Shown piece after piece: positions 348 through 16,677 of a stretch of 64,000 nucleotides of DNA. Made by a program: the position numbers and the translations under genes. The stretch lies in the NCBI GenBank assembly GCA_903919715.1, contig CAIXJC010000012.1, positions 124,001 to 188,000 on the forward strand, read 5' to 3'. How positions within the stretch are numbered: position 1 is the first letter of the stretch; each line of letters begins with the position of its first letter. Below the pieces are notes generated by a model. The model ran no database searches and was not told the origin of the DNA. It saw nothing but the letters and a program-made list of their open reading frames with translations. The DNA is from an uncultured bacterium (GTDB taxonomy: Bacteria; Planctomycetota; Phycisphaerae; Phycisphaerales; SM1A02).

Positions 348-416
348 CTCTGGAGAGAGTAACCCGTAGCATGGCATCGTGGTTTTCATTGAAGACAATC
401 TTCACGAGTCGACACG

Positions 417-1154
417 ATGCTGATCTTGCGAGACGTTCGTCGTGCGTTTGGTTCTCTGCAAGCTGTGGATGGTGTCTCGTTGAAGGTTGATCGCGCGGAG
501 GTCGTCGGGCTTCTGGGTCCCAATGGCGCAGGAAAATCAACGACCGTCGCGATGGCGACAGGGCTTTTGAAACCAGATTCTGGCGAGGTCGAAGTTGTTG
601 GATTTGGCAATCCGATGCGGGCGAGTGTTCGTCGTCAAATCGGTCTTGCTCCGCAGGAATTGGCGCTTTATGAAGGCTTGACCGGCTTCGAAACGCTGGT
701 CTTCTTCTCTCGACTGTATGGCGCCTCGATCCACCGCGATGCGATTCAATGCGGCTTAGACGAAGTGGGGCTCGCATCGCGCGCTCACGATCGCGTCGGC
801 CATTATTCCGGCGGAATGAAGAGACGACTGAATCTCGCAGTGGCACTTATTCACAAACCATCACTGCTCGTTCTCGACGAACCAACGGCTGGAGTCGATC
901 CGCAGTCACGGGCACATGTGCGCGAAATCATCCGTCGACATGCGGCTGCTGGTTGCGCTGTCCTGGTGACGACGCACGATATGGAGGAGGCAGAAAAAAT
1001 TTGTGATCGCATTGCGGTCATGGATCAAGGAGTGATTCGAGCCCATGGGACGCTTGCGCAACTTGTCGCGGCGCATGGCACTGCGGAGGGCACACATGCA
1101 CGGAGCTTGGAAGAAGTTCTGCTCAATCTCACTGGACGGAGTTTGCGCGAATGA
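417..1154 (+). CDS. ABC transporter ATP-binding protein (ABC-2 exporter type)
   Basis: This 245-residue ATPase has all the nucleotide-binding motifs. Walker A is GPNGAGKST (about residues 34-42), the Q-loop lies near LAPQE, the signature is YSGGMKRR (about 130), Walker B is LLVLDEPTAGVDP (about 150-160), and the switch histidine is in TTHDMEEAE. The pattern belongs to the DrrA/CcmA-like subfamily that powers drug, lipid or polysaccharide export. Its stop overlaps the start of the permease gene by 4 bases (ATGA), so the two are co-translated and form one exporter. The substrate cannot be read from the sequence. Confidence 0.93.
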   Translation: MLILRDVRRAFGSLQAVDGVSLKVDRAEVVGLLGPNGAGKSTTVAMATGLLKPDSGEVEVVGFGNPMRASVRRQIGLAPQELALYEGLTGFETLVFFSRLYGASIHRDAIQCGLDEVGLASRAHDRVGHYSGGMKRRLNLAVALIHKPSLLVLDEPTAGVDPQSRAHVREIIRRHAAAGCAVLVTTHDMEEAEKICDRIAVMDQGVIRAHGTLAQLVAAHGTAEGTHARSLEEVLLNLTGRSLRE

Positions 1155-2452
1155 TCCGTCCGATGATCGCCATCGCATTGAAGGATCTGCGTCTGCTTGC
1201 ACGGGATCGTGGCGCACTCTTCTTTACGATTCTATTTCCCGTCATTATCGCCGTTCTGTTCGGCATGGTCTTTGGTCGAATGTCGACCCCTGGTCCGCTT
1301 GATGTTGTCGTGGTCGTGACACAGGACGGGCCGCTTGCGCGTTCGTTTGCTGCCGCGCTTCAAGCCGATTCAGCACTTCATGTTCAAGTTGCGGCGAATA
1401 AACAAAGCGGAGCCGAAATCGTCCAGCAGGGGCACGCAGCGGCAGTCATCATCCTTCCAGAGGGATTCGACGATCGCGCCGAAGCGTTGTTGTCGGGAGG
1501 TTCAATGCCGCTGGAACTCTTTGGAGATCCATCAAGAGCGGCAGAACTGGGACTGCTCGAGGGCAAGTTGATGGAAATTGGATTTCGTCAATTCATGCTG
1601 GCGGTGACGGATTCCGACCGACTCCGTCGCCAGTCCGCACAGATCCGCCGTCAATTGGCGAACGACCCGAATCTCCATGCGCTTGAGCAAACAGCGGTGT
1701 TAAAAATTCTCGCTGGTGCTGAAGAACTCGCTGCGGCGCGCAAGAACGAGGGAGAAAAAAAGACGGCGACGAGTGTTGGCGGGGGGATGTCAGATTTCCG
1801 TCCAGTTCGGATTCGGACGGAATTACTTGCGCATAATCAAGATGATCCGCCTTCGACATATGCAGTGACTTTTCCGCAGGGCGTTGTGTGGGGGCTGGCG
1901 GGATGCGTGATGGCGTTCGTCACGACACTCGCGAGTGAGCGAGCGCAGGGAACGCTCACAAGACTTCGCGCTGCGCCGCTCTCGATGCATCTCATTCTTG
2001 CAAGCAAGGGAATGGCCTGCGTCGCATCGTCGATGATTATGCAGGCGCTGCTCTTGGTGCTTGCGTGGGCCGCCTTCGATGTGCACCCCGTGAATCTTGC
2101 GATGCTGATTTTGGCGATGACTGTGAACGCAATTTCTTTTACCGCACTCGCCATGATGATCGCGGCTCTCTTTCGTTCTGGTGCCGGCACAGATGGTGCC
2201 GGGCGCGCGCTCATTCTCGTGCTGGCGATCGTTGGTGGCGGTTCGATCCCGCTTGTGTTTATGCCTCCCGTACTGCGGTCAATCAGCGTCGTGAGCCCAT
2301 TTCGCTGGGCGATCGCCGCAATCGAAGGCCCACTTTGGCGGGGCGGATCGATTGCAGATCAGTTCGCAGCGATTGGTTCCGTGGCGATCGTTGGGATTGT
2401 GTGCGCAGTCATTTCGCTGGGGGGAATGGCGAAATGGCGCCGAGGCTCGTGA
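1151..2452 (+). CDS. ABC-2 type transporter permease
   Basis: This 433-residue membrane protein has the ABC-2 layout. There is one N-terminal hydrophobic helix (about residues 20-40, LFFTILFPVIIAVLFGMVFG), a long extracytoplasmic stretch to about residue 235, then about five membrane helices in the C-terminal half. It overlaps the ATPase gene by 4 bases and is its partner. The large periplasmic loop is typical of YhfP/DrrB-like and NatB-like permeases. The gene ends 21 bp before the convergent alaS stop. The exported compound is unknown. Confidence 0.9.
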   Translation: MIRPMIAIALKDLRLLARDRGALFFTILFPVIIAVLFGMVFGRMSTPGPLDVVVVVTQDGPLARSFAAALQADSALHVQVAANKQSGAEIVQQGHAAAVIILPEGFDDRAEALLSGGSMPLELFGDPSRAAELGLLEGKLMEIGFRQFMLAVTDSDRLRRQSAQIRRQLANDPNLHALEQTAVLKILAGAEELAAARKNEGEKKTATSVGGGMSDFRPVRIRTELLAHNQDDPPSTYAVTFPQGVVWGLAGCVMAFVTTLASERAQGTLTRLRAAPLSMHLILASKGMACVASSMIMQALLLVLAWAAFDVHPVNLAMLILAMTVNAISFTALAMMIAALFRSGAGTDGAGRALILVLAIVGGGSIPLVFMPPVLRSISVVSPFRWAIAAIEGPLWRGGSIADQFAAIGSVAIVGIVCAVISLGGMAKWRRGS

Positions 2453-2473
2453 CGACTTGTCGTGATGCGCCCG

Positions 2474-5332
2474 TCAACTGCGATTTGCAAACGCAGTTGC
2501 TGCGGCAAACGCATCGGCAATTTTCGATGGATCTTTTCCGCCCGCTTGTGCCGTATCTGGCTTTCCTCCGCCAGAACCACCGCATGCCTGCGCAGTGACC
2601 TTCACCCAGTCGCCTGCTTTGATCCCTCGAGCGATCGCTGATTTTGGACTCGTCGCTGCGATTGCAACTTTCGCATTCACTTCATCGGGGCTTAAGAACA
2701 AGATTGGCGTATCGCTCAATCGAGCGCGTGCTGAGTCGATCGCAGCCAGAAGCGCTGCGGGATCTGCACCATGAACGATTGCAATGAGTGGCTTGGTGGC
2801 ATCTCCAAGTGCATGCTGATCCACGATGCCTCGCACCTGCGCAACTGCACCTTCGCGCGTGGCGCCCTCTTGTTGTCGCCGTGTATCTTTTGCGCGTTCA
2901 CGAAGCGCATCGATCCGAGGCAGTACCCGTGCTCGCGCAACGATGCCGATCGCAAGGGTGGATTCCAATCGTGCAATCTCGGCGACTTCGGCGAGCATCG
3001 CATCGCCATCGAGCGTGGCTGCGGCGTCGATGCGCTTTTCCAGTTCTGCCGCAGATTCTTTCGCAGCTTTCGCTGCGGGTCCAGTTAATCCGAAGCAGCG
3101 ACGGACGCCAGCGGATGATGCACCTTCTCCGAGCAACACGAACGATCCAGCTCCCGACGCAGAGTGCAAATGCGTTCCGCCGCAAAATTCAGTTGAAAGT
3201 CCGCTCCACCGTGGATCACTTGGTGTAGCAAGTAACGCTTCAATCGTTGCGCCGATACAGACGACGCGAACTGGATCGGGGTACCGCTCGCCGAATACTG
3301 CACGGACGCCGTTGATCGCACGAGCTTTCGCAAGGTCGACCGTTGCGATATGGACTGGGAGATTGCTAGCGATCGCTTGATTCACAATGGATTCGACTCG
3401 TGCTGCATCTGTCGCAGTGAGGGCAGCGGACCCTGCATAATCGAATCGCAGTCGATCAGTTGCAACGAGCGATCCGCGTTGTTGAACTTCGTCTCCAACG
3501 ACTTCGCGCAGTGCGTGATTGAGAAGATGCGTCACTGTGTGATTTGCGCGAATTGCTTCTCGCCGATCATGGCGCAGTGCAATCTCTGCCGCATCCCCGG
3601 CTCGAATGATGCCAGAGTGGACGAATCCGATATGAAGAATGTAATCACCAAATCTCTGAACATCGCGGACTTCGAAGACGCCGTGTGACCCGACCGCATG
3701 TCCATCGCCGATGGCGCCACTCCCATCAAGGTGCCCAGCGCGGATGTCGCCGTGATCCGCTTCTTGCCCGCCAGATTCGGCGTAGAAGCATGTGCGGTCA
3801 AGCACGATTCCAATTGGTTTTCCAGCGGAAATCCCAGCGGAAACAGACGGGTGGAAATCTTTGCCATCCCAAATCGCGGCAATGTGCGATCGCATTGGGC
3901 GACCTGCATCGCGCAGAGTGTCGTCCGTGGCGCGCACGTGGAGCGCGGCCAATTTCGCAAGCGCATCAGGAGTTAACTCCATTTGTGGAATATCGCTTGC
4001 AACGGCACGACTCGTTTCTCGCGCGCGCTCCATGAGTATTTGATATCCCGCAATGTCGACGGCAAATCCACGCTCGGCAGCCATGACTTGCGTGAGATCG
4101 ATTGGGAATCCCCAAGTGTCATGCAGGCGGAAAGCATCTTCAGCGGCGATACTCGGCGGCGTTGCATTCGCACCGCGTGCGGCAGATTCATCGAAGAGAG
4201 CGATACCTCGTCCGAGCGTTCGGCCGAAGAGTTCTTCTTCAGCACGGATGATCTCGGCAGCTTTCGTCGCTCCTGCGGTGATTTCTGGGAATGCCGTACC
4301 AAGCGTTGCGACGACGGAGGGAACGAGTTCGAAGACGAAGGGTCGGTCCATTCCAAGAGTTTGTCGTCCATGTCGCGCTGCGCGCCGAAGGATGCGGCGC
4401 AAAACATAATTTCGTCCATCGCTTCCGGGTCCGGCTCCATCGCATGCCGCTGCGGTCAGGCAGCGAACATGATCTGCAATCACTCGATATGCGATATCGA
4501 TGTGGTCATGCAATACGCCGCCATACGGCCGTGCTCCTGTAACTTCGTGGATTGCGGAGAAAATTGGCGACCACAGGTCCGTGTCATAATTTGAGCGCTT
4601 CCCTTGAATCACGCTCACAAGTCTTTCAAGCCCCATCCCAGTATCGACATGTCGTGCAGGCAGTTGTTTCAGCGTGCCGTCAGTCTCTCGATTGAATTGA
4701 ATGAAGACGTGATTCCATATTTCTAAAACGTCGGGATCGCCCGAATTGACCAATGCAGCTGCGTCGCGACCGCCGATGCGATCAAAATGAATTTCGGAGC
4801 AGGGTCCGCAGGGACCGCTTTCGCCCATCTCCCAAAAGTTGTCTTTCATCGAGCCAGGCAAGACACGATTCGCAGGAAGGAAACGACGCCAAATTTGGCG
4901 TGCTTCTTCGTCTGGCTCAAGGCCAGCCTTCGCGTCGCCGCCGAAGTATGTCGCGTAGATGCGATCGGGGTTCAATCCGAAAGTGCCGGTGAGCAACTCC
5001 CATCCCCACGCAATGGATTCTTCTTTGAAATAATCTCCAAAGGACCAATTCCCGAGCATCTCGAAAAAAGTGTGGTGATAGACGTCGTTGCCGACATCCT
5101 CGAGATCATTGTGTTTTCCACCTGCGCGAATGCACTTTTGCGAATTCACCGCACGGGTGTATGGACGAGATCCGCGACCGAGAAAGACGTCCTTGAATTG
5201 GTTCATCCCCGCATTCGTGAAAAGCAATGTCGGATCGTCGTAGGGCACAACGGGGCTTCCTGGCACGAAAGTATGCCCCGCCTTAACGCGGAAGAAGTCG
5301 ATGTAGGCAGTTCGAATGTCAGTAGCGCGCAT
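2474..5332 (-). CDS. alaS: Alanyl-tRNA synthetase
   Basis: Charges tRNA-Ala with alanine in the cytoplasm. The 952-residue protein has the full class II architecture. An N-terminal catalytic core carries LLFTNAGMNQFKDVFLG and GGKHNDLEDVG. The editing domain carries HTVTHLLNHALREV and the second zinc/editing motif CGGTH. The C-terminal C-Ala region ends with a glycine-rich GGSGGGKPDTAQAGG motif. It is somewhat longer than the usual ~875 residues because of a longer linker and editing region, a difference I consider minor. The ATG at 5332 fits the conserved N-terminus. It converges with the ABC permease and diverges from tpiA, 59 bp away. Confidence 0.97.
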   Translation of the reverse strand: MRATDIRTAYIDFFRVKAGHTFVPGSPVVPYDDPTLLFTNAGMNQFKDVFLGRGSRPYTRAVNSQKCIRAGGKHNDLEDVGNDVYHHTFFEMLGNWSFGDYFKEESIAWGWELLTGTFGLNPDRIYATYFGGDAKAGLEPDEEARQIWRRFLPANRVLPGSMKDNFWEMGESGPCGPCSEIHFDRIGGRDAAALVNSGDPDVLEIWNHVFIQFNRETDGTLKQLPARHVDTGMGLERLVSVIQGKRSNYDTDLWSPIFSAIHEVTGARPYGGVLHDHIDIAYRVIADHVRCLTAAACDGAGPGSDGRNYVLRRILRRAARHGRQTLGMDRPFVFELVPSVVATLGTAFPEITAGATKAAEIIRAEEELFGRTLGRGIALFDESAARGANATPPSIAAEDAFRLHDTWGFPIDLTQVMAAERGFAVDIAGYQILMERARETSRAVASDIPQMELTPDALAKLAALHVRATDDTLRDAGRPMRSHIAAIWDGKDFHPSVSAGISAGKPIGIVLDRTCFYAESGGQEADHGDIRAGHLDGSGAIGDGHAVGSHGVFEVRDVQRFGDYILHIGFVHSGIIRAGDAAEIALRHDRREAIRANHTVTHLLNHALREVVGDEVQQRGSLVATDRLRFDYAGSAALTATDAARVESIVNQAIASNLPVHIATVDLAKARAINGVRAVFGERYPDPVRVVCIGATIEALLATPSDPRWSGLSTEFCGGTHLHSASGAGSFVLLGEGASSAGVRRCFGLTGPAAKAAKESAAELEKRIDAAATLDGDAMLAEVAEIARLESTLAIGIVARARVLPRIDALRERAKDTRRQQEGATREGAVAQVRGIVDQHALGDATKPLIAIVHGADPAALLAAIDSARARLSDTPILFLSPDEVNAKVAIAATSPKSAIARGIKAGDWVKVTAQACGGSGGGKPDTAQAGGKDPSKIADAFAAATAFANRS

Positions 5333-5391
5333 TGGATTTGAAGTCTACGCAATGACGCCTCGAATTTGGTTCGACCGTAGCATCGGATTCC

Positions 5392-6180
5392 ATGATGCGT
5401 CGACCATTCGTTGGCGGAAATTGGAAGATGAATACGGACCTCGAATCGGGGACGGTTCTCGCACAAACATTGGCGGCGCAGTGGAAACAAAACGCGGATG
5501 TTTGTGATGTTGTCCTCTTTCCTCCATTTCCATATTTACAGTCGGTTGCTCGTGCAATTGACGGAAGTTCCCTTGCACTTGGTGCACAGGACGTTTCAAG
5601 CGAAGTGAACGGCGCACTGACTGGCGAGGTCAGCGCCGAAATGCTCATAGATATCGGCGTCACATGGGTTCTCGTCGGTCATTCCGAACGGCGTCATCGC
5701 CTCGGGGAGCCCGATTCCTTGGTTGCGGAGAAATTTGCAATGGCAATCGCAAGTGGATTGTCGGTCGTTCTCTGTGTGGGCGAAACCTTGCTCCAACGAT
5801 CAGCTGGGAACGCTCATGAAATCGTCGTCAGCCAGTTATCAAGCGCATTTGAACGAATTCCCTCCGACGCACTCGAACGAGTGGTGATTGCTTATGAGCC
5901 AGTCTGGGCGATTGGAACTGGGGTTGCCGCAACGGCCGAGGATGCGCAGGGGGCTCATGGCGTGATACGAGAGTTTATTGGTTCACGCTATGATTCGGAA
6001 CTCGCCTCTGGGATCCGCATTGTGTACGGTGGATCGCTGGTGCCGGGCAATGCGAAGACGATCTTCGCTGCGCCTGGGGTTGACGGTGGTTTGCTTGGCG
6101 GCGCTTCTTTGAAGGCGGCTGACTTTCTCTCCATCTGTTCTTCGGCAATGATCGGAATTGCGACCGGCTCGGCCGGTTAG
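5392..6180 (+). CDS. tpiA: Triosephosphate isomerase
   Basis: Interconverts dihydroxyacetone phosphate and glyceraldehyde 3-phosphate in glycolysis. The 262-residue barrel has the lysine in GGNWKMN (about residue 12), the catalytic histidine in VGHSERR (about 97), the catalytic glutamate in AYEPVWAIGTG (about 168) and the phosphate-binding GGASL near the C-terminus. Two consecutive ATG codons open the frame, so 5392 and 5395 are equally possible. It lies 12 bp upstream of secG, a tpiA-secG order that recurs in many bacteria and suggests co-transcription. Confidence 0.97.
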   Translation: MMRRPFVGGNWKMNTDLESGTVLAQTLAAQWKQNADVCDVVLFPPFPYLQSVARAIDGSSLALGAQDVSSEVNGALTGEVSAEMLIDIGVTWVLVGHSERRHRLGEPDSLVAEKFAMAIASGLSVVLCVGETLLQRSAGNAHEIVVSQLSSAFERIPSDALERVVIAYEPVWAIGTGVAATAEDAQGAHGVIREFIGSRYDSELASGIRIVYGGSLVPGNAKTIFAAPGVDGGLLGGASLKAADFLSICSSAMIGIATGSAG

Positions 6181-6192
6181 TGGAATAATCCA

Positions 6193-6690
6193 ATGACCAT
6201 GTGGTTTTCGATTCTTACCGTCCTCTTCATTCTGTCGAGCGTCATATTGGTTCTTGTGATTCTTGTGCAGCGTCCGCAGGGTGGCGGACTCGCCCAAGCT
6301 TTCGGAGGAGCATCGGGCGGAGGAACAGACACCGCTTTCGGTGGCCGCACCGGAGATGTGTTGACATATCTGACAATGGGAGCGTTTGCGCTCTATCTCT
6401 TAGTCGCAATCAGCCTCAATGTGATTGGGAATTCGGTCAAGAGCCAAGCAGCCATGACTGAAGAACAGATGATCGAACCAGGACTCTTGCCGACAGATCC
6501 CAAGAGTGCGCCTGCTACGCCGCCGGCGGGAACGACTGCAACGACTCCAGCAGCTGATGCGCCACTTGTTGCTCCAACTGCGCCAGCACCTGACGCAGTT
6601 CCAGCCGCGGATAAGCCATTGGTTGCGCCGACTGCTCCAGCTCCAGCGCCAGAACCTGCAACAGCTGCGCCTGCAACCGGAAAGCCTTGA
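6193..6690 (+). CDS. secG: Preprotein translocase subunit SecG with Pro/Ala-rich tail
   Basis: An accessory subunit of the SecYEG channel in the inner membrane. Residues 1-85 form a typical SecG: two membrane helices (about 4-25 and 55-78) flank the conserved loop VQRPQGGGLAQAFGG and the GGRTGDVLT motif. From about residue 95 to 165 the protein is a Pro/Ala/Thr-rich tail with the unit PLVAPTAPAP occurring twice. SecG is usually 75-120 residues, so the tail is an addition common in planctomycete SecGs and probably disordered. It sits between tpiA and yicC. Confidence 0.93.
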   Translation: MTMWFSILTVLFILSSVILVLVILVQRPQGGGLAQAFGGASGGGTDTAFGGRTGDVLTYLTMGAFALYLLVAISLNVIGNSVKSQAAMTEEQMIEPGLLPTDPKSAPATPPAGTTATTPAADAPLVAPTAPAPDAVPAADKPLVAPTAPAPAPEPATAAPATGKP

Positions 6691-6697
6691 TACTCCG

Positions 6698-7582
6698 ATG
6701 ATCCGATCGATGACCGGCTTCGGCATCGCGCAGGCAGAGCTCGAAGGAGCTCTTGTTGCCGTCGAAGTTCGCTCGGTCAACAATCGGCATTTCAAATGCA
6801 CGCTGCGAATTCCAGATGATTTCACTGTGCTCGAAGCTGATATCGAAGCACAGGTATCTCGCCGCTTGATTCGAGGCAGCGTCATTGTGACCGTTCGCAT
6901 TTCAAATGCTGCCGCACGAATTGCAACGCGAATCAATGGCGTTCGATTGAATGAATATCTCGCGCAACTCGTCGAAGCCTTGGGAACAGAGGAAGCTTCA
7001 CGCGTCGATCGCGGACAATTGTTACTCCTGCCAGGGGTCGTCGTCGAGGATGGTGGCGCTGTTTTTCTCGAACAACTTCGCCCCGCCGTCCTTCGTTTGC
7101 TCGACGAAGCATGTGACAAATTGATGGCGATGCGTCAAAGTGAAGGCGCGGCACTGCGCGAACACTTGGTCGAATATGGAAAGGTCATTCGCACGCGCGT
7201 TGATGCGATTCGGTTGCGTGTTCCCGAAGTCATTGCGGCGTACCAAGCACGTTTGCGACAGCGAATTGATGGAATGTTGGCGGAGATCGGCAAGACGGTT
7301 GAGCCTGCAGACTTACTTCGTGAAGTGGCAATCTTCAGCGAACGTTCGGATATCGCAGAGGAGTTGGTGCGCTTGACTGGGCATCTGGATCAATACGAAT
7401 CGTTACTGGATCCAAGATTCGCGGAGCCGATTGGCCGAACAATGGACTTTGTTGCGCAAGAATTACTGCGCGAGGCAAACACGATCGCGAGTAAGTCTGC
7501 GGACATCGGAATCAGTCGGCAAGTTGTGGAAATCAAGACTGCGATCGACCGCATCAAGGAGCAGTCGCAGAATGCCGAATAG
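6698..7582 (+). CDS. yicC: YicC family endoribonuclease-like protein
   Basis: A 294-residue protein of the YicC/YloC family. It has the family's N-terminal MIRSMTGFG, the internal VEVRSVNNRHFKC segment, and the C-terminal DUF1732-type region ending in QELLREANTIASKSADIGI and EIKTAIDRIKEQSQN. E. coli YicC has been linked to RNA turnover and reported to act as an endoribonuclease. I chose the ATG at 6698 because the conserved MTGFG block begins there; the frame opens further upstream only as a shadow of secG. Its stop overlaps the next gene by 11 bases, so the genes from tpiA onward look like one transcript. Confidence 0.93.
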   Translation: MIRSMTGFGIAQAELEGALVAVEVRSVNNRHFKCTLRIPDDFTVLEADIEAQVSRRLIRGSVIVTVRISNAAARIATRINGVRLNEYLAQLVEALGTEEASRVDRGQLLLLPGVVVEDGGAVFLEQLRPAVLRLLDEACDKLMAMRQSEGAALREHLVEYGKVIRTRVDAIRLRVPEVIAAYQARLRQRIDGMLAEIGKTVEPADLLREVAIFSERSDIAEELVRLTGHLDQYESLLDPRFAEPIGRTMDFVAQELLREANTIASKSADIGISRQVVEIKTAIDRIKEQSQNAE

Positions 7583-8660
7583 GGGGACGGATCGAGCCCG
7601 TGCCTTACTCGCACCTGATGAGATCCGAATCGTTTCCGAGTTGTTTCAAGCGCCGGCTGTCATTCGAGCACACGCATACAACCGAGGTTCGGTTCGATTT
7701 CCCAAGGCCATCATCGAGACCGCCGATCGAGCTCGTTTTCTTTTGAAGCGTCGTATCGAGACGCCATCCAACATCGCACGCGTCAACTTGAGCCATGAGG
7801 TTCAAGTAGAACTTGCTCGCACTGGTTTTCCAGTATCCACGTTCAAGAGGACAAATGATGATGCGACATGGGTCGTTCATGATGGCTGTATCTATGAAAT
7901 GTTCACATTTATCGATGGCGATCGCTTTGGACGATTAGAGCCGGAGGTGCATGAGAGCGGCATCTTGCTGTCGCGCATGCATTGGACGCTCAAAGACTGG
8001 GAGCCATCGACGCCGACTCCGTCTCATGCGGGATATCACAACAGTCAGCCCGTTGGGTCCTCGTGGTCACGTCTTGAGACCAAGATCCTTGAAGTCGATC
8101 CAGCGGCGTCAACATTACTGCTCGAGAAGTTGGTTGCGAACGTTCGTGATCAATACGAAATGGCTGCAGTCACTGCAGAAAACACTCTCGTTGATTCATC
8201 GGCCTGCGGAAGTCGATCGATACTGCATGGTGACTTGCATCCTGGAAACATGCTCTTTGGAGCTCGAAGACCGATCGCACTTCTCGACTTCGATTCAGCT
8301 CGCATTGGCCGAACCCTCTTCGACATTGCCAATGGCGCTCTGCAGTTTTCCATGCCAAGTATGGGCAAGAAACCAGTTGTGGACTGGGACGCATCCTTAA
8401 ACATTGAACTGTTCAAGAGTTTCTTGAGCGGCTATGCATGGATGCAACATATGCCGCTAGATGAATCAGAATGCGGTGCACTCCCCGCACTTATGATTGA
8501 GGCAACCGTTGCCGAAACTATTCCACGAATAGCCCTCGGCGGCACATGGGAGGGTCGGTCTGGAATCGAAATCTTGGAGTTTGTTTGGAAGAGGGCGCAG
8601 TGGATTTGGTCGCAGCGATCGACCCTGACTACCCTATGCCAATCATGCATGCGTCCGTGA
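7572..8660 (+). CDS. Phosphotransferase-fold (APH/homoserine kinase-like) protein
   Basis: A 362-residue protein of the aminoglycoside phosphotransferase/choline kinase-like fold. The catalytic loop HGDLHPGNML (about residue 220) and the metal-binding LLDFDSARIG (about 237) are intact. A glycine-poor N-lobe contains VRFPKAI and RFLLKRR, the likely ATP-lysine region. Related enzymes phosphorylate homoserine, methylthioribose, fructosamine or protein Ser/Thr (SrkA). The sequence alone does not tell which. I chose the ATG at 7572 because it overlaps the yicC end by 11 bases, as expected in an operon. Confidence 0.82.
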   Translation: MPNRGTDRARALLAPDEIRIVSELFQAPAVIRAHAYNRGSVRFPKAIIETADRARFLLKRRIETPSNIARVNLSHEVQVELARTGFPVSTFKRTNDDATWVVHDGCIYEMFTFIDGDRFGRLEPEVHESGILLSRMHWTLKDWEPSTPTPSHAGYHNSQPVGSSWSRLETKILEVDPAASTLLLEKLVANVRDQYEMAAVTAENTLVDSSACGSRSILHGDLHPGNMLFGARRPIALLDFDSARIGRTLFDIANGALQFSMPSMGKKPVVDWDASLNIELFKSFLSGYAWMQHMPLDESECGALPALMIEATVAETIPRIALGGTWEGRSGIEILEFVWKRAQWIWSQRSTLTTLCQSCMRP

Positions 8661-8662
8661 AT

Positions 8663-9649
8663 ATGAATTCAATCAGATGGTGTGGGCGATGTGCCGCCAC
8701 GACTCTTTCAATCGCAATTGCTGCCTCTGCGATTGCGCAGGAGCAGAAGGTTCCACCCGCACGTCCAGCGGGAATCGGAAACATCGCAGATCCTCCAGCT
8801 CCAGTTCAGGTCAAGATCGATGGGGCACTTGGTCAGCCACAAATGTGGCGCGCCGATCTGATGCAGGTCCCGCTTCAGCCAGCGCCAGAAGTCGTTCGCT
8901 TGTGGTCTGCAGAAGTGATTGCGAGCGTGCGCATTTCAGCCAAAGTACTGACGGCTGTTGCTGACATGGATTCACGAGAATTCGCACAGCGCCAAGCGGC
9001 GAGCGCACGTTTAACCGATCCAAGTGTGACGTCAGAGGAAATTTTCGCAGTCTTGGTCCGTGGAAATCTCAGCGAAGAACAACGCGAACGACTTCTGACA
9101 GTTGCCCGCGAGAAAGTGCTCGCGCTCCCGCGCGGTGCGCTGGGAATTCGAATGCAAGTAAGCGGCGATCCTCGTCATCCAGGCGTGGAAATTCAAGCAC
9201 TGCTCCCTGGGATGCCTGCATCGAAAGTTCTCAAGAGTGGCGATCGAATCGAAGTGATCGATGGCAAGCCCATCACAACATCGAACGATCTTGTTGAGAT
9301 CATCCAGTCGAAACTGCCTGGCGAGTCCGTCAAATTATCCGTGGCGCGACAGCAACGGGATGAACGTGGAAAACCAAAGATGGATGCGCAGGGCGGGTTC
9401 ATCGAAGATAAAGTCGAGGTCGATGTCGATCTGACTTCAGCAGCGGATCTCGATCGATTCGAGGGGCAATTCCCGACGCAGACGCGCAGTATGGTTCTTG
9501 AGCGTCGTCTGTTGGCTCTGCGGGAAGCGGAAGAGAAATTTGCGCCAGCGACGGCGAAAGTCATGTCGACTTCAACTCCAGCAGCCGCGCTCGGCATCAA
9601 GGAATCTCATGTGGACAAAGCAAAGGATGCGTCACCCATCGCTCCGTGA
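8663..9649 (+). CDS. Exported PDZ-domain protein
   Basis: A 328-residue protein starting at an ATG 2 bp after the preceding stop. Residues 1-28 form a signal peptide, with hydrophobic TTLSIAIAASAIA followed by QEQ. At about residues 155-225 there is a PDZ domain with the ligand-groove region LGIRMQV and the conserved GDRIEVIDGKPIT. No trypsin-like protease domain is attached, so this is not a DegP-type protease. It more likely acts as a periplasmic scaffold or adaptor. Function beyond that is unknown. It closes the tpiA-secG-yicC run, and adk converges on it. Confidence 0.78.
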   Translation: MNSIRWCGRCAATTLSIAIAASAIAQEQKVPPARPAGIGNIADPPAPVQVKIDGALGQPQMWRADLMQVPLQPAPEVVRLWSAEVIASVRISAKVLTAVADMDSREFAQRQAASARLTDPSVTSEEIFAVLVRGNLSEEQRERLLTVAREKVLALPRGALGIRMQVSGDPRHPGVEIQALLPGMPASKVLKSGDRIEVIDGKPITTSNDLVEIIQSKLPGESVKLSVARQQRDERGKPKMDAQGGFIEDKVEVDVDLTSAADLDRFEGQFPTQTRSMVLERRLLALREAEEKFAPATAKVMSTSTPAAALGIKESHVDKAKDASPIAP

Positions 9650-9736
9650 GCCTGCCCCGAAGGATTTTGTTTCGCTGCTTTGGTTGATCGACCGCTTGCT
9701 TGATACAAACTTTTGCTTGACACGAACTATTGCGGT

Positions 9737-10363
9737 TCAGGATGTGGCAGAAGTCGGTTGATTGAAGTGAGCTTCTTGGACTGGTACGACGACTTCGAGA
9801 ACTCGTTGGAAGACTTGCGCAGGCGATCCCATGGCATCAATGTCCGCAACAATCGACTTTGGATAAAAATCGAGAACTGGAAGCGTCTCTTGGTGATACA
9901 CGTCGAATCGATGTCGAATGACTTTGTCATCGGCGTCATCCATTCGGTTTTCCTTTAACGCCCGGCGGCGCATTCGCTGCATCATCGCGTTCTCATCGTT
10001 GCATCGAAGGTGGATCACCTTAAACACATCAAGCGAAGCCTGCAGTGCTCGAGCCTGTCCGACATTGCGAGGTATCCCATCGAGAACGAGCAGATCTTGT
10101 TTTGGCTTATAGAGGCTGAGCACGGTTTGCGCATGCATGTTCTCTCGCCACATTTGGATGGTGAGTTCGTCTGGAACGAGTTCGCCACGCGAAGAATAAT
10201 TAAGAAACTGTTTCCCCAGATCACTCGTCATATCCAGCGATCGAAAAACATCGCCGCAAGCCAAGTGGAAGAATCCGGGGATCTTTCCGAGGATCTTTCC
10301 TTGAGTTCCTTTGCCGGCACCAGGTGCGCCAAACAGCAGGATTGATTTGTAACGATCGGGCAT
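9737..10363 (-). CDS. adk: Adenylate kinase
   Basis: Converts ATP + AMP to 2 ADP. The 208-residue protein has the P-loop GAPGAGKGTQ (about residues 12-21), the AMP-binding CGDVFRS, and DGIPRN in place of the common DGFPRT. The expected LID-side arginines are in RRRALKENRMDD. The LID is the short form without a cysteine zinc motif. The C-terminal half departs from standard Adk, so a nucleotide kinase of slightly different specificity is possible. It stands alone on the minus strand and is not in the usual ribosomal-protein operon. Confidence 0.85.
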   Translation of the reverse strand: MPDRYKSILLFGAPGAGKGTQGKILGKIPGFFHLACGDVFRSLDMTSDLGKQFLNYSSRGELVPDELTIQMWRENMHAQTVLSLYKPKQDLLVLDGIPRNVGQARALQASLDVFKVIHLRCNDENAMMQRMRRRALKENRMDDADDKVIRHRFDVYHQETLPVLDFYPKSIVADIDAMGSPAQVFQRVLEVVVPVQEAHFNQPTSATS

Positions 10364-10729
10364 TGTCGGATGCTAGCAACGGCCGATTCAACTGGTCAAT
10401 GCAGTCTGTTTCGTTGGGGAATGCGCAACTTGACTCTTGAGGTGAACTGATTCGATCCGCAGAAGTCAAACGCCTGAGGTGGCAGGTGTGAAAAGGTCTC
10501 GGGCCGAGATGATTTCAGCGGCGCGTCCAAGTTTCAATCCGCAGGGGGCGGCAGCGGTGGAAAGTCCTCTCGGTGCTCAAACAGTCCTCGGCGACCGACA
10601 CGATCTGTTCATTCGCCGCTCGATTACAAGTTCAGTCGGCCACCTGCGGAACTCGCACGAGAGAGCTTTCCACGGCTGACAAGATTTGAGTATTGCGTGT
10701 CAGTCTTCGATCGCCCGTAGCCTGTGTCT
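10364..10729. other. Intergenic region, no supported gene
   Basis: About 366 bases separate the divergent adk and recJ starts, so promoters for both should lie here. A 66-codon plus-strand frame (10479-10679, GTG start) has no recognisable motif and no good ribosome-binding site, and I do not call it. I looked for SRP RNA, RNase P RNA, 6S and tRNA signatures and saw none. Confidence 0.6.
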
Positions 10730-12478
10730 ATGAATGGTTGGATGAAAACTTGGATACTTCCTGCGCCTGTTCCTTCTGGAACGCTCATGCAGCGCATTGC
10801 GGCGGCGCGCGGCATTTCAGCCAGTTCGTTGCCAAAGTTTATCGCTCCAACCTTCGGTGACCTTGCACCTCCAAAAGAGTTGCATGGAGCAGTTGAAGTC
10901 GGGGAACGCCTCGCGGCCGCTATCCGTGCTGGTCGCAAGGTCGCGATCTTCGGCGACTATGACGCCGATGGAATGTGTGCATCTGCGATCCTGCTGCATC
11001 TGATGCGCGCAGTGCGGCCGAACGATCCGCCAATCGTCTATATCCCAGAACGTGCAACCGAAGGGTATGGATTATCCATTCCAGCGATTCAGCATCTCGC
11101 ATCGGTGGGTGTTGAGACGATCGTCTCCGTCGATTGTGGCGTGACGGCGATCGAGGAAGCTCGAGAGGCGCGTCGATTGGGATTGGAGTTACTCATCACG
11201 GATCATCACACGATGCTTCCAAACGGAGTCTTGCCAGATGTCGATGCGCTTGCGCATCCTGGACTCGGTGGTGGAACGAGCGAACTTTGCGGTGCGGCGG
11301 TTGCATGGAAAGTCGGATGGGCGTTCGCATGCGCTTGGTGCGGGAGCGACCGAGTTCCCGCAGTACTGCGAGAATTATTGGTTGAAACGCTGGCACTTGC
11401 CGCATTTGGCACGATCGCTGACGTTGTTCCACTGCGTGGAGAAAATCGGTTGATCGCTCGTCTCGGCGCTGCACGAATTGCGAACAGTGGACTTCCGGGT
11501 TTGCTCGCATTAGCGCGAGAGGCCGGCATTGGGGCAAATGACCATGTCGACAGCGAACGGATTTCATTTGGTGTCGCACCCATCGTCAATGCATGTGGTC
11601 GACTCGGGCACCCACTCGAAGCGGTGGAACTGCTTGGTCTGCCGTCAAATCTGCAAGACGTAGGTGCACGAGATTCTCTTATGCGGTCTGCGAAGCAGAT
11701 GGCATCCAACTTTCGACAACTCAACGATCGACGCAAACTCGTTGAGCGCCGCATCGTCGATGCGGCATCGGCACGAATCGACGAAGGGCTCGGACTCGCC
11801 CGAGGAGCGTGTGTGCTCGCTGCGTCAGATTGGCCGCGCGGCGTTGTCGGAATCGCTTGCTCGCGGTTGGCGGAAACTTTTGCGGTGCCAGTTGTGTTGA
11901 TGGAGAGCGAGGGAGAATTTGCCCACGGATCTGCTCGAAGCGTGGAGGGATATTCAGTTCTTGGCGGGCTTCATTCGTGCGCGAACTTACTGCAACGATT
12001 CGGCGGACACGCAGCAGCAGCGGGAGTGGCCGTTCGATTGGACCGATTGGATGCATTTCGCGAAGCGCTCTCTGCTCATGCTGCAGAGAATCGAAAGAAT
12101 GACGAGCCACCGTCGATTCGCCCAGATGTTGAAATGTTCGCCGCAGATCTCTCGACGGCATCATTTGAGTCGATCGATGGACTTGGGCCATTCGGTCGAA
12201 CATTCTCTGCGCCAACTGTCTTTATCCGTGGCGCAACTGTTGCAGGTGAAGCGCGAGTGTTCGGCGCCGAGTCAGACCATCTCAGCTTCTTCGCCCGTCT
12301 TGATGGATCCGATGCGAGAGAAGTCAGATGTACTTGGTGGCGTCAGGCAGCACAATTCAAGAAGGTGAAGCGCGGTCAGCGGCTCAACCTCATCGCAATC
12401 CCGCAGGTCGATCGGTGGGGAGGCGCGCCGCGACCAGCGTTCACGCTTCTCGATGCAACCGAGTGCATCACCGACTGA
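10730..12478 (+). CDS. recJ: Single-stranded-DNA-specific exonuclease RecJ
   Basis: A 5'-3' single-strand DNA exonuclease used in recombination and repair. The DHH-family motifs are present in order: FGDYDADGMCAS (motif I), VSVDCG (motif II), ITDHHT (the DHH motif) and, after it, PIVNACGRLG. In the DHHA1 domain the glycine motif RFGGHAAAAG is intact. An OB-fold region follows. At 582 residues it is near the usual RecJ size. The frame also opens with GTG at 10724. I chose the ATG two codons later. Confidence 0.93.
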   Translation: MNGWMKTWILPAPVPSGTLMQRIAAARGISASSLPKFIAPTFGDLAPPKELHGAVEVGERLAAAIRAGRKVAIFGDYDADGMCASAILLHLMRAVRPNDPPIVYIPERATEGYGLSIPAIQHLASVGVETIVSVDCGVTAIEEAREARRLGLELLITDHHTMLPNGVLPDVDALAHPGLGGGTSELCGAAVAWKVGWAFACAWCGSDRVPAVLRELLVETLALAAFGTIADVVPLRGENRLIARLGAARIANSGLPGLLALAREAGIGANDHVDSERISFGVAPIVNACGRLGHPLEAVELLGLPSNLQDVGARDSLMRSAKQMASNFRQLNDRRKLVERRIVDAASARIDEGLGLARGACVLAASDWPRGVVGIACSRLAETFAVPVVLMESEGEFAHGSARSVEGYSVLGGLHSCANLLQRFGGHAAAAGVAVRLDRLDAFREALSAHAAENRKNDEPPSIRPDVEMFAADLSTASFESIDGLGPFGRTFSAPTVFIRGATVAGEARVFGAESDHLSFFARLDGSDAREVRCTWWRQAAQFKKVKRGQRLNLIAIPQVDRWGGAPRPAFTLLDATECITD

Positions 12479-12643
12479 TGAATATCGCATACATGCGGTG
12501 ATGCCGACAATTTTCGAAGAGACTCATTTGCCTCGACGGCGTACTGCGAGGCAGAACTGGTGGGAGAGATCGTTCCGCACTGTCCACTAGAGATACGTTT
12601 TGCGGTGAACTCGTAACCTACGCTTCACAGGAATTTTTTTACT

Positions 12644-13723
12644 ATGAAACACGTCGCCACACCGATTCAGCCGGACATGTATTCGCAACCAATCGAAACC
12701 CGCATTCGCTGGCTATTCGACCACGCAAAGCGACACGCCGAGATTTTTGCCAGTACGGGAACCTGGCTAGCGCGCAAGCGTTATCTTGCGCAACATCCGA
12801 CGGCTATCGCTGTGATGAAGTGCATGGATGGACGCATCAATATTCCAGTGGCGACCGAAACCCCAATGGGAATCATTCAGCCCTTTCGCAATCTTGGCGG
12901 ACAATTCGATTTGGGATGGCCTCACCTTGGCGAAGTGCTCTCCGATTATGTGATGTCTGTTGTGCGCGATGGTCGGCGTGTCCTGATCATCGTCACTTAT
13001 CATTTCTCTAAGGGCGATCCGCATCGGGGCTGCGCTGGATTTCAATACGACACATCGGCAGCCCGCAAACATACTTTCGACATTCGCGTTCAAATTGAAA
13101 AAGTGTTCGGCGTCGATCACCAAACTGTGTATCCAATGGTTTGTGGGTTTGAAACTGATGAAGACGCACTCATCCTGCATGGACAAAACGGGGAGACGCT
13201 GGATGTTTCCACGCTGACAGAAACTGATATTTTGCCTGAGCGTCTCCGTACATACTTCCCAGACATGCCAGAACAAATGCAGGCGGATTTGGTGCCATTG
13301 ATTCAAGGCAACATGCGGCATGTGGCGGAAGTGCGTCGGAACGCCCGTGAGTTGAACATCGAGCACCGTGAATGGGCTATTTGCGTCGGACGTGGATTCG
13401 ACTGGTTACACATGCACAATCAGGCGCTCATCATTGGACCTTACAGTCCTGATCTGGCCGACCCGATTCGCAAGGCGGCAGCAATCATTCAGTCCAACAT
13501 GTCGGAAGGTCGCATCCCCGACGATGGATTCCTATTGCTCGCATCGGTTCCGTATGCGGAAATTGGGGTTGACTGCGCGCGGGCAGAATTGAAAGCGAGA
13601 TTTTTGTCAGCATTTGCTGCTAATGTCATCAGAGCCGAATTCCCAAAATTGGCCCAGAAAATGCGCCAACACACGGCCATCCTTCAATGGAGCAATCGGC
13701 ATCTTGAAGAATTGGCCCCATAG
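12644..13723 (+). CDS. Carbonic anhydrase-like protein (beta-class/CsoSCA-type zinc site)
   Basis: The 359-residue protein carries CMDGR at residues 60-64, the CxDxR signature of beta-class carbonic anhydrases (zinc Cys plus the Asp-Arg dyad). HRGC at 127-130 is the HxxC half of the zinc site. His120 lies 10 residues before Cys130 and is an alternative third ligand, close to the spacing in the carboxysomal enzyme CsoSCA. At 359 residues it is longer than ordinary beta enzymes (~200-230) and shorter than CsoSCA. No carboxysome gene is nearby. It converges on sbtB-sbtA, which supports interconverting CO2 and bicarbonate. AGGAAT lies a few bases upstream of the ATG. No signal peptide is seen, so it is probably cytoplasmic. 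Confidence 0.75.
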   Translation: MKHVATPIQPDMYSQPIETRIRWLFDHAKRHAEIFASTGTWLARKRYLAQHPTAIAVMKCMDGRINIPVATETPMGIIQPFRNLGGQFDLGWPHLGEVLSDYVMSVVRDGRRVLIIVTYHFSKGDPHRGCAGFQYDTSAARKHTFDIRVQIEKVFGVDHQTVYPMVCGFETDEDALILHGQNGETLDVSTLTETDILPERLRTYFPDMPEQMQADLVPLIQGNMRHVAEVRRNARELNIEHREWAICVGRGFDWLHMHNQALIIGPYSPDLADPIRKAAAIIQSNMSEGRIPDDGFLLLASVPYAEIGVDCARAELKARFLSAFAANVIRAEFPKLAQKMRQHTAILQWSNRHLEELAP

Positions 13724-13788
13724 TTTCTAGTTGCGCGCTTTCAGAGGGGCGCAGCATTGAGCGTTCGGTGGAAAAGCCTGATGCCGAA

Positions 13789-14088
13789 TCAATTATGAAT
13801 GATCCAATGCGCATCTGAAACAACACAGACGCCACCAAATGTTTCGATGACAGGTCGTACAGCATCCGTAAGTTTTTTGACCAATTCAAGTTCGCAATAG
13901 ATCAAGATATATACGTTTTTAAAACCACTTCCGAGTCCGTGGCCGTCCTTTTCGCCTTTCAATCCTTTGCCCGCAACATCTTTAAAGATGGTGTAGCCAG
14001 GGATACCTGTGTCGTCGAGCAATTTAATCAGTCTGCTTTGGTAAATGGCATCGGTAATAATTTCAATTCGTTTGATGTTGTTTTGCAT
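13789..14088 (-). CDS. sbtB: PII-like bicarbonate-transport regulator SbtB
   Basis: A 99-residue ferredoxin-fold protein of the PII superfamily. It begins with IKRIEIITDAIYQSRLIKLL and has a T-loop region AGKGLKGEKDGHGLGSG. A core strand KNVYILIYCE and a C-terminal FGGVCVVSDA follow. It is shorter than GlnB, with no uridylylation-type T-loop tyrosine in the usual place, and matches the SbtB group. SbtB proteins bind adenine nucleotides, including cAMP in cyanobacteria, and gate the SbtA permease. It starts 9 bp after the sbtA stop, so the two are co-transcribed. The segment 13861-13920 has only 19 G+C of 60, lower than the surrounding genes. Confidence 0.85.
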   Translation of the reverse strand: MQNNIKRIEIITDAIYQSRLIKLLDDTGIPGYTIFKDVAGKGLKGEKDGHGLGSGFKNVYILIYCELELVKKLTDAVRPVIETFGGVCVVSDAHWIIHN

Positions 14089-14097
14089 GGGCTTTGT

Positions 14098-15072
14098 TCA
14101 GGCGTGAATGCATTGAACCAAATAGTAATACAACGGAAGACCAACAACGATGTTGAATGGGAACGTGATTGCAAGTGCGACCGGAACGTAAATGCCAGGG
14201 TTTGCATCTGGAATCGCAACGCGCATTGCCGCTGGAACCGCAACGTATGAAGCGCTTGCAAACAACACCGTAAACATAAACGCGTTTCCTGGACTGAGTC
14301 CCAGAAAGTAGGCCAGTCCGATGGCAATTACCGCATTGAGTAGTGGGATGAATATTCCAAATCCAATGAGAAACCATCCTGCGCTTTTCAATGCGCCCAA
14401 TCGTTTCCCTGCGATCACTCCCATATCCAAGAGGAAGAACGAGAGCATTCCCTTAAAAATGCCGCCCGTAAATGGCTCCATAATTTTCATGCCATGTTCG
14501 TTTGAAGCGAGTCCAACCATCAAGCTGCCAAGCAGGACCACGATCGAACCATTCAAGCATGCTTCGCGAAGGAGTTCTGTAAAGTTCAGGTGAAATCCGT
14601 GATCTGCTTTTTTGTTGTACTTGCGATACAGGATCACCCCGATAATGATTGATGGCGACTCCATTAAGGCCATCGCCGCAATCATCACTCCTCCATACGG
14701 AATGCCGGCTCCATCCAAAATGTTTCCAGCTGTGATAAATGTCACCGCACTTACTGATCCAAATGCAGCAGCCAACGCAGCGGCGTTTGGCACGTCGAGT
14801 TTGAACCGCAATATGCGATAGCAATAAATTGGAATAATTCCTGCCATGAGCGAGCAGATAATTAAAATGAGCGCAACTTCTCTGTTTATTCCGCTGGCAT
14901 GAAGTTCGACGCCGCCTTTGAACCCGATCGCCATCAAGAGATACATGGAAATGAATTTTGAAATCTGATCTGGAATCTCCAGATCTGACTTCAACAGGAT
15001 TGCGATCATTCCGATAAAAAAGAAAGGGACTGGCGGAGCGAAAAAGTTGTGCAAAATCTGCGTCAAGTCCAT
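14098..15072 (-). CDS. sbtA: Sodium-dependent bicarbonate transporter SbtA
   Basis: A 324-residue, very hydrophobic permease with about ten membrane helices in two inverted halves. The segments KSDLEIPDQISKFISMYLLM, AIGFKGGVEL and AAAFGSVSAVTFITA in the first half, and LFASASYVAVPAAMR with ALAITFPFNIVVGLPLYYY in the second, are characteristic of SbtA (PF05982). The family imports bicarbonate with sodium at high affinity. It is followed 9 bp later by its regulator sbtB, and the carbonic anhydrase-like gene converges from the other side. There are no RuBisCO or shell genes in view, so the bicarbonate may feed carboxylases rather than carbon fixation; that is inference. Confidence 0.92.
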   Translation of the reverse strand: MDLTQILHNFFAPPVPFFFIGMIAILLKSDLEIPDQISKFISMYLLMAIGFKGGVELHASGINREVALILIICSLMAGIIPIYCYRILRFKLDVPNAAALAAAFGSVSAVTFITAGNILDGAGIPYGGVMIAAMALMESPSIIIGVILYRKYNKKADHGFHLNFTELLREACLNGSIVVLLGSLMVGLASNEHGMKIMEPFTGGIFKGMLSFFLLDMGVIAGKRLGALKSAGWFLIGFGIFIPLLNAVIAIGLAYFLGLSPGNAFMFTVLFASASYVAVPAAMRVAIPDANPGIYVPVALAITFPFNIVVGLPLYYYLVQCIHA

Positions 15073-15081
15073 ACTGGCAAT

Positions 15082-15110
15082 CTTATAGAGTATTTATAGT
15101 GAAGTTTGAA
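15082..15110 (-). promoter_or_regulatory. Possible sigma-70 promoter of sbtA-sbtB
   Basis: On the minus strand TTCAAA (15110-15105) and TATAAG (15087-15082) are separated by exactly 17 bases. Transcription would start about 3 bases before the sbtA ATG at 15072, so the mRNA would be nearly leaderless, which is a reason for caution. A second AT-rich box, TATAAA (15098-15093), lies within the spacer. Confidence 0.35.
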
Positions 15111-15203
15111 CGGTCGTCGTCTTTTATCGCTCTAATCGTTTGGCGCTGCAGACGAGCTGCACTTCACTTCCCGTCGAGGCGTTCGTTGTTCAATCCGTGG
15201 GTC

Positions 15204-16646
15204 TTACAAGACAATATTTTCGCCAACGGCAATGTTTTTAGGCAGATTCGGTGACTGAGCGAGTTCCACCGCATCAAGCGCAGTCAATGGCGAAAGTTCG
15301 ATTGTCGCCGCACATTCACCATCTTCATCATCGCGCGGAATGTCGATTCCACACGACTCGAGCCAACGCGCCGCACGTTCGGATTGAGCACGCCGACTGG
15401 TGGCAGCAGAATCTTCTCCATCGGCATTTTTGATGGGCGCAAATTCTTCATCCCGCCGTGTTTCATAGACCATCGGCTGACGTGCGATCGGCACGGCGTC
15501 AAAGATAAATGCTTCCATCTTGATCGCATTTGGAGCTGCGGGTTCAACGAGCAATCCAGTGTTCAGGTCGACGCTCGCTACTTTTTTGAGCGCACGGTGC
15601 AGGGGAAGTCCGTGGATGTCGTCGGCGAGGTTCTCCAAAAAAGCCCGCGAAAATGCATGAATTGCAATGGAACCTGCCGAGTGCATCAAAGCGCCGTCGG
15701 GATGAGTGGCCTCGGCAAGGTGCGTGGGCAAGTCGCTGTATTCCAATACAACCGTCTTGGAATTCTGGCGGCAAAACACTCCGACCTTCTCACTTGGATC
15801 TCGCTTGGCGACCACCTTGCTAGAGACTTCTCCTGAACTCTCTGGATGTGCGGCATGCAGGCCGAGGAAGAGGGGATCGACGGCTTTCACCAAGGGATTG
15901 TCGACTTGAAAGTACGACAGCGTGTCGACGCCACTCTTGCGCATTTCCTCTAAAGAGCCACTGGTCGCGAGCGCACGGATCGCTCCGCCATGCCCATCGG
16001 GATTGAGGGCAATTGAATCTCGGGAAGCAAGCAGGATTTTTCCATCGAGCGAAAGTGACGGCAGCGTCCCTTGCATGAAACATCGGACGCTGTGCTCACC
16101 AAGCTGGAACCAATCGTGTTCACGAAAGAAATCCTGCGTCGCCCGGTGGTTGAGAGGGCTTGTCATCAGATACCAAGGAATATTTCCTCGCCATCGACGA
16201 CGTGCGGCGAGAATGGATTCTGCAAACACCTGAAAAAGAGGCTTCTGCAGCAGCGGCGTTGCAGGAAATGTTCCCTTGGGGCCGTTCCATCCGAGTCGGG
16301 TTCCCTGACCGCCAGCGACTGTGAAGCATGCAACGCGGCCGCTGTGGATCATCTGCTCACCAATGGCGCGATACTTCGCGGTATCTAAAAGTTGATCGCG
16401 AACAACGGACACAGGCTGGATGTCATCAGCGGTAACGTTCGGTTTCGCATGCGCAGTCGACCAATGCGCAATCTCTCGCTTCAGGATTTCGAGCGGGAGC
16501 GCCTCGCACTGTTCAAGCAGGTTCTCGCGCTGAGATTCATCGAGCGAATCCCAAAATGTAAGGACATGCGATTGCCCGAACGATTCGAGACGCTCTTTCG
16601 TTGCTTTGTATCGCTCTTGAATGGAAGCCGTCGTTGCGTGGTTCAT
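15204..16646 (-). CDS. UDP-sugar pyrophosphorylase (UAP/UDPGP family)
   Basis: A 480-residue nucleotidyltransferase of the eukaryote-type UDPGP family. The nucleotide-binding loop is GGQGTRLGWNGPKG. HGGAIRALATSG, FQVDNPLVKAVDP and the late sugar-binding region around NAIKMEAFIFDAVP match UDP-N-acetylglucosamine pyrophosphorylases (UAP1-like). The likely reaction is UTP + GlcNAc-1-P (or hexose-1-P) to UDP-sugar, complementing the GlmM-type mutase at 19.7-21.1 kb. The frame opens at TTG (16661), but the ATG at 16646 is a better start. phoU lies 31 bp upstream. Exact sugar specificity is not readable. Confidence 0.85.
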   Translation of the reverse strand: MNHATTASIQERYKATKERLESFGQSHVLTFWDSLDESQRENLLEQCEALPLEILKREIAHWSTAHAKPNVTADDIQPVSVVRDQLLDTAKYRAIGEQMIHSGRVACFTVAGGQGTRLGWNGPKGTFPATPLLQKPLFQVFAESILAARRRWRGNIPWYLMTSPLNHRATQDFFREHDWFQLGEHSVRCFMQGTLPSLSLDGKILLASRDSIALNPDGHGGAIRALATSGSLEEMRKSGVDTLSYFQVDNPLVKAVDPLFLGLHAAHPESSGEVSSKVVAKRDPSEKVGVFCRQNSKTVVLEYSDLPTHLAEATHPDGALMHSAGSIAIHAFSRAFLENLADDIHGLPLHRALKKVASVDLNTGLLVEPAAPNAIKMEAFIFDAVPIARQPMVYETRRDEEFAPIKNADGEDSAATSRRAQSERAARWLESCGIDIPRDDEDGECAATIELSPLTALDAVELAQSPNLPKNIAVGENIVL

Positions 16647-16677
16647 CGGTTCGTCAGCCAACTGGGATGTGTTCGGG

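Follow-up and report, generated by a model that had tools for sequence, protein, structure and literature searches.

A CsoSCA2-type carbonic anhydrase and an SbtA/SbtB pair in a probable lateral insertion in a planctomycete genome without a RuBisCO match

The window analysed here, a stretch of 64,000 nucleotides from an uncultured bacterium of the order Phycisphaerales, carries a three-gene locus (12644-15072) in which a carbonic anhydrase (CA) gene on the + strand faces, in convergent orientation, an sbtA-sbtB pair on the - strand. The trio is unique within its genus and was probably acquired laterally, a conclusion that is well supported. We consider it moderately likely that the insert is an inorganic-carbon module, and a shared function of the three genes in inorganic-carbon homeostasis is plausible.

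The CA gene (12644..13723, +, 359 aa) starts 165 bp after recJ, and its stop codon lies 65 bp from that of sbtB (13789..14088, -, 99 aa, a PII-like protein), which follows 9 bp downstream of sbtA (14098..15072, -, 324 aa, Na+-dependent bicarbonate transporter family). The first-pass annotation, made from the sequence alone, had placed the same three frames and named them as adjoining CA, SbtA and SbtB genes, and the Pfam, NCBIfam and fold matches agree with these names. Translation of the CA from M1 gives a protein about nine residues longer than its relatives, with M12 as a possible alternative start. Promoter and terminator scans found three and two candidates, respectively, against shuffled means of 3.3 and 3.5. 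A repeat scan of the locus yielded short two-copy families and one short palindrome, and no clear element ends; one arm of a 12-nt inverted pair (12747-12758 / 15069-15080) falls within the CA gene.

Profile and fold comparisons firmly predict that the CA is a short, non-carboxysomal relative of CsoSCA, belonging to the group called CsoSCA2 or 'non-cso'. The first-pass annotation had pointed to CsoSCA and the beta-CAs as the families for comparison. Residues 105-180 match the CsoSCA catalytic family (Pfam CsoSCA_cat, PF20686) with 27.6 bits (cut-off 21.5), as do eight of the nine members of the CA alignment (E ≤ 0.01), and the NCBIfam profile for carboxysome-shell CAs (TIGR02701) gives 45 bits, far under its equivalog cut-off of 241.05. 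For the canonical beta-CA profile PF00484, the Pfam search returned no row at E ≤ 10, which rules out a canonical beta-CA. The enzyme indeed fits neither the ordinary beta class nor full-length CsoSCA, as had been claimed, yet it is no longer an enzyme without a class, since the group has already been described. A match to Creatininase is sub-threshold (19.4 bits, cut-off 31.3) and was seen in one of the nine alignment members. Phmmer matched CsoSCA in the PDB weakly (E 0.041-0.14). An AlphaFold2 model built from nine homologous sequences (pLDDT 81.2, pTM 0.76; first predicted strand at residues 53-59) was matched by Foldseek to five CsoSCA chains (E 6.2e-16 to 3.7e-14, 19% identity, TM 0.66-0.74 by query length). 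The sixth match was an unrelated protein (E 2.0e-3) and ordinary beta-CAs appeared at about 0.02-0.03; strong PDB fold matches of the model were to CsoSCA only.

Seven active-site residues of CsoSCA, listed in PMC9164163 and mapped by alignment, correspond to C60, D62, R64, H120, C130, H241 and E243 of the window CA. All seven are invariant in the 20 CsoSCA2 rows (the window and 19 others) and the nine CsoSCA rows of an alignment from which G867 (its match is split in two), L064 (no frame could be used), L066 and the CsoSCA pieces of G433 are omitted. The zinc histidine of CsoSCA is thereby predicted to correspond to H120 and not to H127, which is a histidine in just 5/20 CsoSCA2 rows (7/9 CsoSCA rows) and is ruled out as a zinc ligand by the alignment. 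Among the zinc signatures initially proposed, C60, D62, R64 and C130 are retained and H127 is dropped as variable in CsoSCA2, while H120, then offered as an alternative CsoSCA-like ligand, gains support from its invariance. We take D62 and R64 to be the Asp-Arg pair with the role that it has in beta-CAs.

CsoSCA2 has been introduced as a second variant, 'csoSCA alone' (PMC9164163), and is the same group as the non-cso orphan cluster of the CsoSCA family (PMC11086599). Like the window CA, CsoSCA2 is described in PMC9164163 as having a short N-terminal part (~40 residues) with the active-site residues kept, and as found, in autotrophs and heterotrophs alike, away from carboxysome loci; in Sulfuricella it lies close to cbbLS. 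According to PMC11086599, the non-cso forms are shorter than the carboxysomal ones, lack the N-terminal hook and have one predicted zinc site per pseudo-dimer. Hydrogenases of the NAD-linked or [FeNi] type, or permeases, are often encoded close by, whereas the window CA neighbours an SbtA/SbtB pair. Carboxysomal CsoSCA (2FGY, 9G4T, 8THM) shares the fold and the seven active-site residues with the window CA but differs in length (457-471 target residues vs. 359), in its long N-terminal domain, absent from the window CA, and in its setting, as the window's assembly has no RuBisCO match. The window CA is firmly a further member of this described, unassayed group: at 359 aa it has the short form, and it falls in a clade apart from the carboxysomal enzymes. 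These two features, together with the absent RuBisCO match, also rule out a carboxysome remnant. The main text of PMC9164163 contains neither 'SbtA' nor 'Planctomycet', and in the accessible portions of the literature searched we found no description of CsoSCA2 beside sbtA, which is not proof of its absence from print.

The case for lateral acquisition of the trio comes from a comparison with congeners. A recJ-type exonuclease gene (10724..12478, +; TIGR00644, 364.3 bits, below the cut-off of 396.9) forms the conserved left flank, and a UDPGP-family gene, here named ugp (15204..16661, -; UTP--sugar-phosphate uridylyltransferase-like, PF01704, 113 bits, cut-off 22), the right flank. We found recJ in 17 of the 18 other congeners and compared all 17 loci with the window. 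In 16 of them, the UDPGP-family gene follows recJ tail to tail and directly adjacent, with 18-167 bases between the matched ends (the match in G017 is cut by a contig end). The same interval in the window, from the recJ stop to the stop of the next gene, measures 2725 bp (~2.7 kb; 12479..15203) and contains exactly the CA, sbtA and sbtB genes, for which none of the 17 congener recJ stretches gave a match. Since its gene content is precisely this trio, the insertion makes a joint unit plausible, and the genes were perhaps acquired together. Contamination or a chimaera is unlikely, because the locus is flanked on either side by the gene order of the congeners and the GC3 of the CA gene (0.54) is like that of its neighbours (0.52-0.58), in contrast to 0.80-0.85 in three Thiobacillus copies. 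Total GC is 52% for the CA gene, 47% for sbtA and 41% for sbtB. In the one exceptional congener (G005, L045 6377-10935), the gene opposite recJ is another one (9637-10632), and the flank is rearranged; a frame at 6377-7084 looks transposase-like by eye.

The first-pass annotation had held that neighbours unconserved in relatives would refute its reading, and formally they are unconserved. The CA is absent from all 60 other relatives searched and from all 391 other sampled genomes of the window's phylum (the one match among 392 being the window's own), SbtA from all 18 congeners, and sbtA from the 20 stretches around other CsoSCA2 genes, with flanks of <2 kb to ~9 kb, some of which end at contig ends. 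Acquisition explains this pattern.

Eight CsoSCA2 loci were confirmed in a pattern search across 84,980 species, each represented by a single genome; their products are 76%-77% (four Thiobacillus MAGs), 70% (a betaproteobacterium), 69% (Sulfuricella), 62% (Pelovirga) and 60% (Desulforhopalus) identical to the window CA; a more distant copy (L074) shares 38%. Within the class of Thiobacillus, an alignment search of 369 sampled genomes gave 17 matches. CsoSCA2-like matches (E ≤ 1.2e-100, reading frames 353-394 aa long) account for six, one of them in the Thiobacillus genome from which the search started; the remaining 11 are weak, and their frames span 509-550 aa in ten cases and 366 aa in one. 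Nine of 395 genomes of the Desulforhopalus phylum also matched, two of them already among the pattern-search loci, and none of 72,556 plasmid records did. In the tree, the split between CsoSCA2 and CsoSCA is supported by 100/100 and the window CA groups with the four Thiobacillus rows (99/99), with the caveats that L074 is a long branch and that two CsoSCA rows are of odd composition. Transfer of the CA from the direction of Thiobacillus is the simplest reading.

Both partner proteins are well matched to their families. SbtA matches Pfam Sbt_1 (PF05982) over residues 13-320 of 324, above the cut-off (382.7 bits, E 1.7e-114), and aligns in both halves with the structure 7CYE (E 1.1e-25). SbtB matches the P-II family (48.4 bits, cut-off 25) and the PII-like protein 5D4N (E 9e-9). 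Unlike the known setting of SbtA, the window's genome has no RuBisCO match, and transport and regulation are predicted here from the sequence. Six of the 60 other relatives encode SbtA, all six with sbtB adjoining. The window SbtA shares 41%-42% identity with the SbtA proteins of two Thiobacillus genomes, the two of the eight genomes with the first CsoSCA2 loci that have a PF05982 match (the other six have no SbtA match); in both, sbtA lies ~4 kb from a CsoSCA-like gene (a 571-aa frame in G433) and not beside CsoSCA2. In the SbtA tree, the window copy groups with a Haliscomenobacter plasmid copy (92/92), on a branch that is not starred and among long branches. SbtA was found in 18 plasmid records, all at <60% identity, and no CA is listed near plasmid sbtA in the three surroundings viewed, for which the gene table is incomplete. 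In another genome of the window's family (G033, L104 6130-10688), an exported-looking CA-family gene lies ~2.5 kb downstream of sbtA-sbtB on the same strand.

SbtA would import HCO3- together with Na+, and SbtB would gate it according to the adenine-nucleotide state, as in cyanobacteria (for SbtB gating of SbtA, see PMC13249358; for further background, PMC12646314). Conversion between HCO3- and CO2 would fall to the cytoplasmic CsoSCA2, which would use a single zinc site (C60, H120 and C130, with the D62/R64 pair), probably as a pseudo-dimer in which one half works. If the CA is catalytically active and bicarbonate is the substrate of SbtA, the three proteins may act jointly to keep HCO3- and CO2 available and equilibrated when outside CO2 is scarce, with carboxylation steps as the presumed physiological sink. 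A precedent in a non-autotroph is MpsAB of Staphylococcus, an inorganic-carbon importer that is interchangeable with a CA (PMC6689103). That transporter is unrelated to SbtA, and there importer and CA replace each other, whereas here both occur together.

The carbon-fixation search of the assembly, which is 94% complete, covered RuBisCO, PEP carboxylase and biotin carboxylase, so that the 'apparent heterotroph' of the first-pass annotation stays a putative label. No RuBisCO large subunit was matched in the whole assembly, which extends the earlier remark that no RuBisCO gene was in view. PEP carboxylase, searched in the window's assembly, and the biotin-carboxylase C domain (PF02785) likewise had no match there. 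In other genomes PF02785 is common (15 of 18 congeners, 37 of the 41 genomes searched); as most congeners carry a biotin carboxylase, its lack in the window's assembly is probably an assembly gap, and a genus-wide lack is ruled out. The acyl-CoA carboxylase beta subunit previously noted at 56.9 kb is a member of its family (TIGR01117, 331.6 bits, below the cut-off of 998.8). This carboxyltransferase gene (56864-58501) stands in an assembly without a biotin-carboxylase C domain match. Biotin carboxylases, put forward in the first-pass annotation as the users of the supplied carbon, are a candidate sink.

Several points count against an inorganic-carbon module. The CA and sbtAB genes are convergent and are therefore not one transcript, their apparent sources differ (SbtA identity of 41%-42%, unequal GC), and the genome has two canonical beta-CAs (PF00484) on other contigs, one with an N-terminal hydrophobic stretch as judged by eye. 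Combining an HCO3- pump with a CA in the cytoplasm also invites CO2 leakage. A pattern of pump or CA, one or the other, described for some groups (PMC10880623), points in the same direction. The differing sources and GC contents would fit CsoSCA2 and sbtAB having entered one permissive intergenic site on separate occasions, in which case they act apart and are adjacent by chance, and the lack of sbtA in the 20 other CsoSCA2 stretches and the change at the recJ site in congener G005 agree with this. Nevertheless, the insertion consists of exactly these three genes, from two inorganic-carbon families that are both missing from the 18 other genomes of the genus, and we regard separate arrivals as somewhat unlikely.

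Alternatively, the proteins may serve pH homeostasis instead of carbon supply, in that HCO3-, once imported, binds a proton in the cytoplasm and exits as CO2. Such a cycle follows chemically if each protein functions like the rest of its family, and it suits an assembly without RuBisCO and PEP carboxylase matches, but SbtA is reported (PMC10880623) to be absent in autotrophs with a pH optimum below 4.3; we consider this role quite improbable. It is less probable still, to the point of being hard to credit, that CsoSCA2 is inactive or that, as a zinc enzyme sharing this fold, it catalyses a different reaction. The short group is called unstudied or uncharacterised in PMC9164163 and PMC11086599, and one of nine members has the sub-threshold Creatininase match, yet the strong fold matches lead only to CsoSCA chains and the seven active-site residues are kept in all 20 rows, even in L074 at 38% identity. 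We therefore continue to favour the laterally acquired inorganic-carbon module. Far more speculatively, and in our view unlikely, the trio could be a mobile, RuBisCO-independent cassette of an apparent heterotroph, with a gated or directional CsoSCA2 or a proton-consuming HCO3-/CO2 cycle. If so, the unassayed CsoSCA2 family would have a role outside autotrophy, and a gated or directional enzyme would allow pump and CA to avoid short-circuiting each other. The locus bears on whether a cytoplasmic CA can usefully coexist with an HCO3- pump, and, as CsoSCA2 is reported to be widespread and unstudied, a copy linked to SbtA/SbtB without a RuBisCO match offers a compact test case.

An SbtA/SbtB pair was not seen as a CsoSCA2 neighbour at the other loci examined, while inorganic-carbon genes, counted as raw occurrences, lie near several of them. 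In the four Thiobacillus MAGs (L003-L006), the closest CA relatives found (76%-77%) sit after cbbLSQO RuBisCO genes: CsoSCA2 follows cbbQ-cbbO, and cbbL-cbbS where these are within the stretch, on the same strand, and looks as if it were part of a non-carboxysomal RuBisCO operon. CbbO is named from its position, Pfam giving a VWA domain only. In L003 (553-7053), CsoSCA2 begins 139 bp after cbbO, and complex-I-like genes lie beyond on the opposite strand. No cbb genes were matched in the Sulfuricella stretch (L008). In L009 (5284-7059) and L087 (7553-9328), a PF00484 CA lies 27 bp upstream of CsoSCA2, head to tail, and the two may share a transcript. Near CsoSCA2 in L010 lie OadA/PycB, a carboxyltransferase and a hexapeptide protein that by eye resembles gamma-CAs. 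PEP carboxykinase lies near it in L072, and in L070 (G522, 6532-9894) it is flanked by purE-purK on one side and a NuoB-like gene on the other, with all these genes on the same strand; the proximity of purE-purK and PEP carboxykinase may be chance. Finally, L071 (G790, 83-9470) has the same convergent layout as the window with a different type of inorganic-carbon transporter, dabA and three antiporter-like membrane genes facing CsoSCA2 in place of sbtA.
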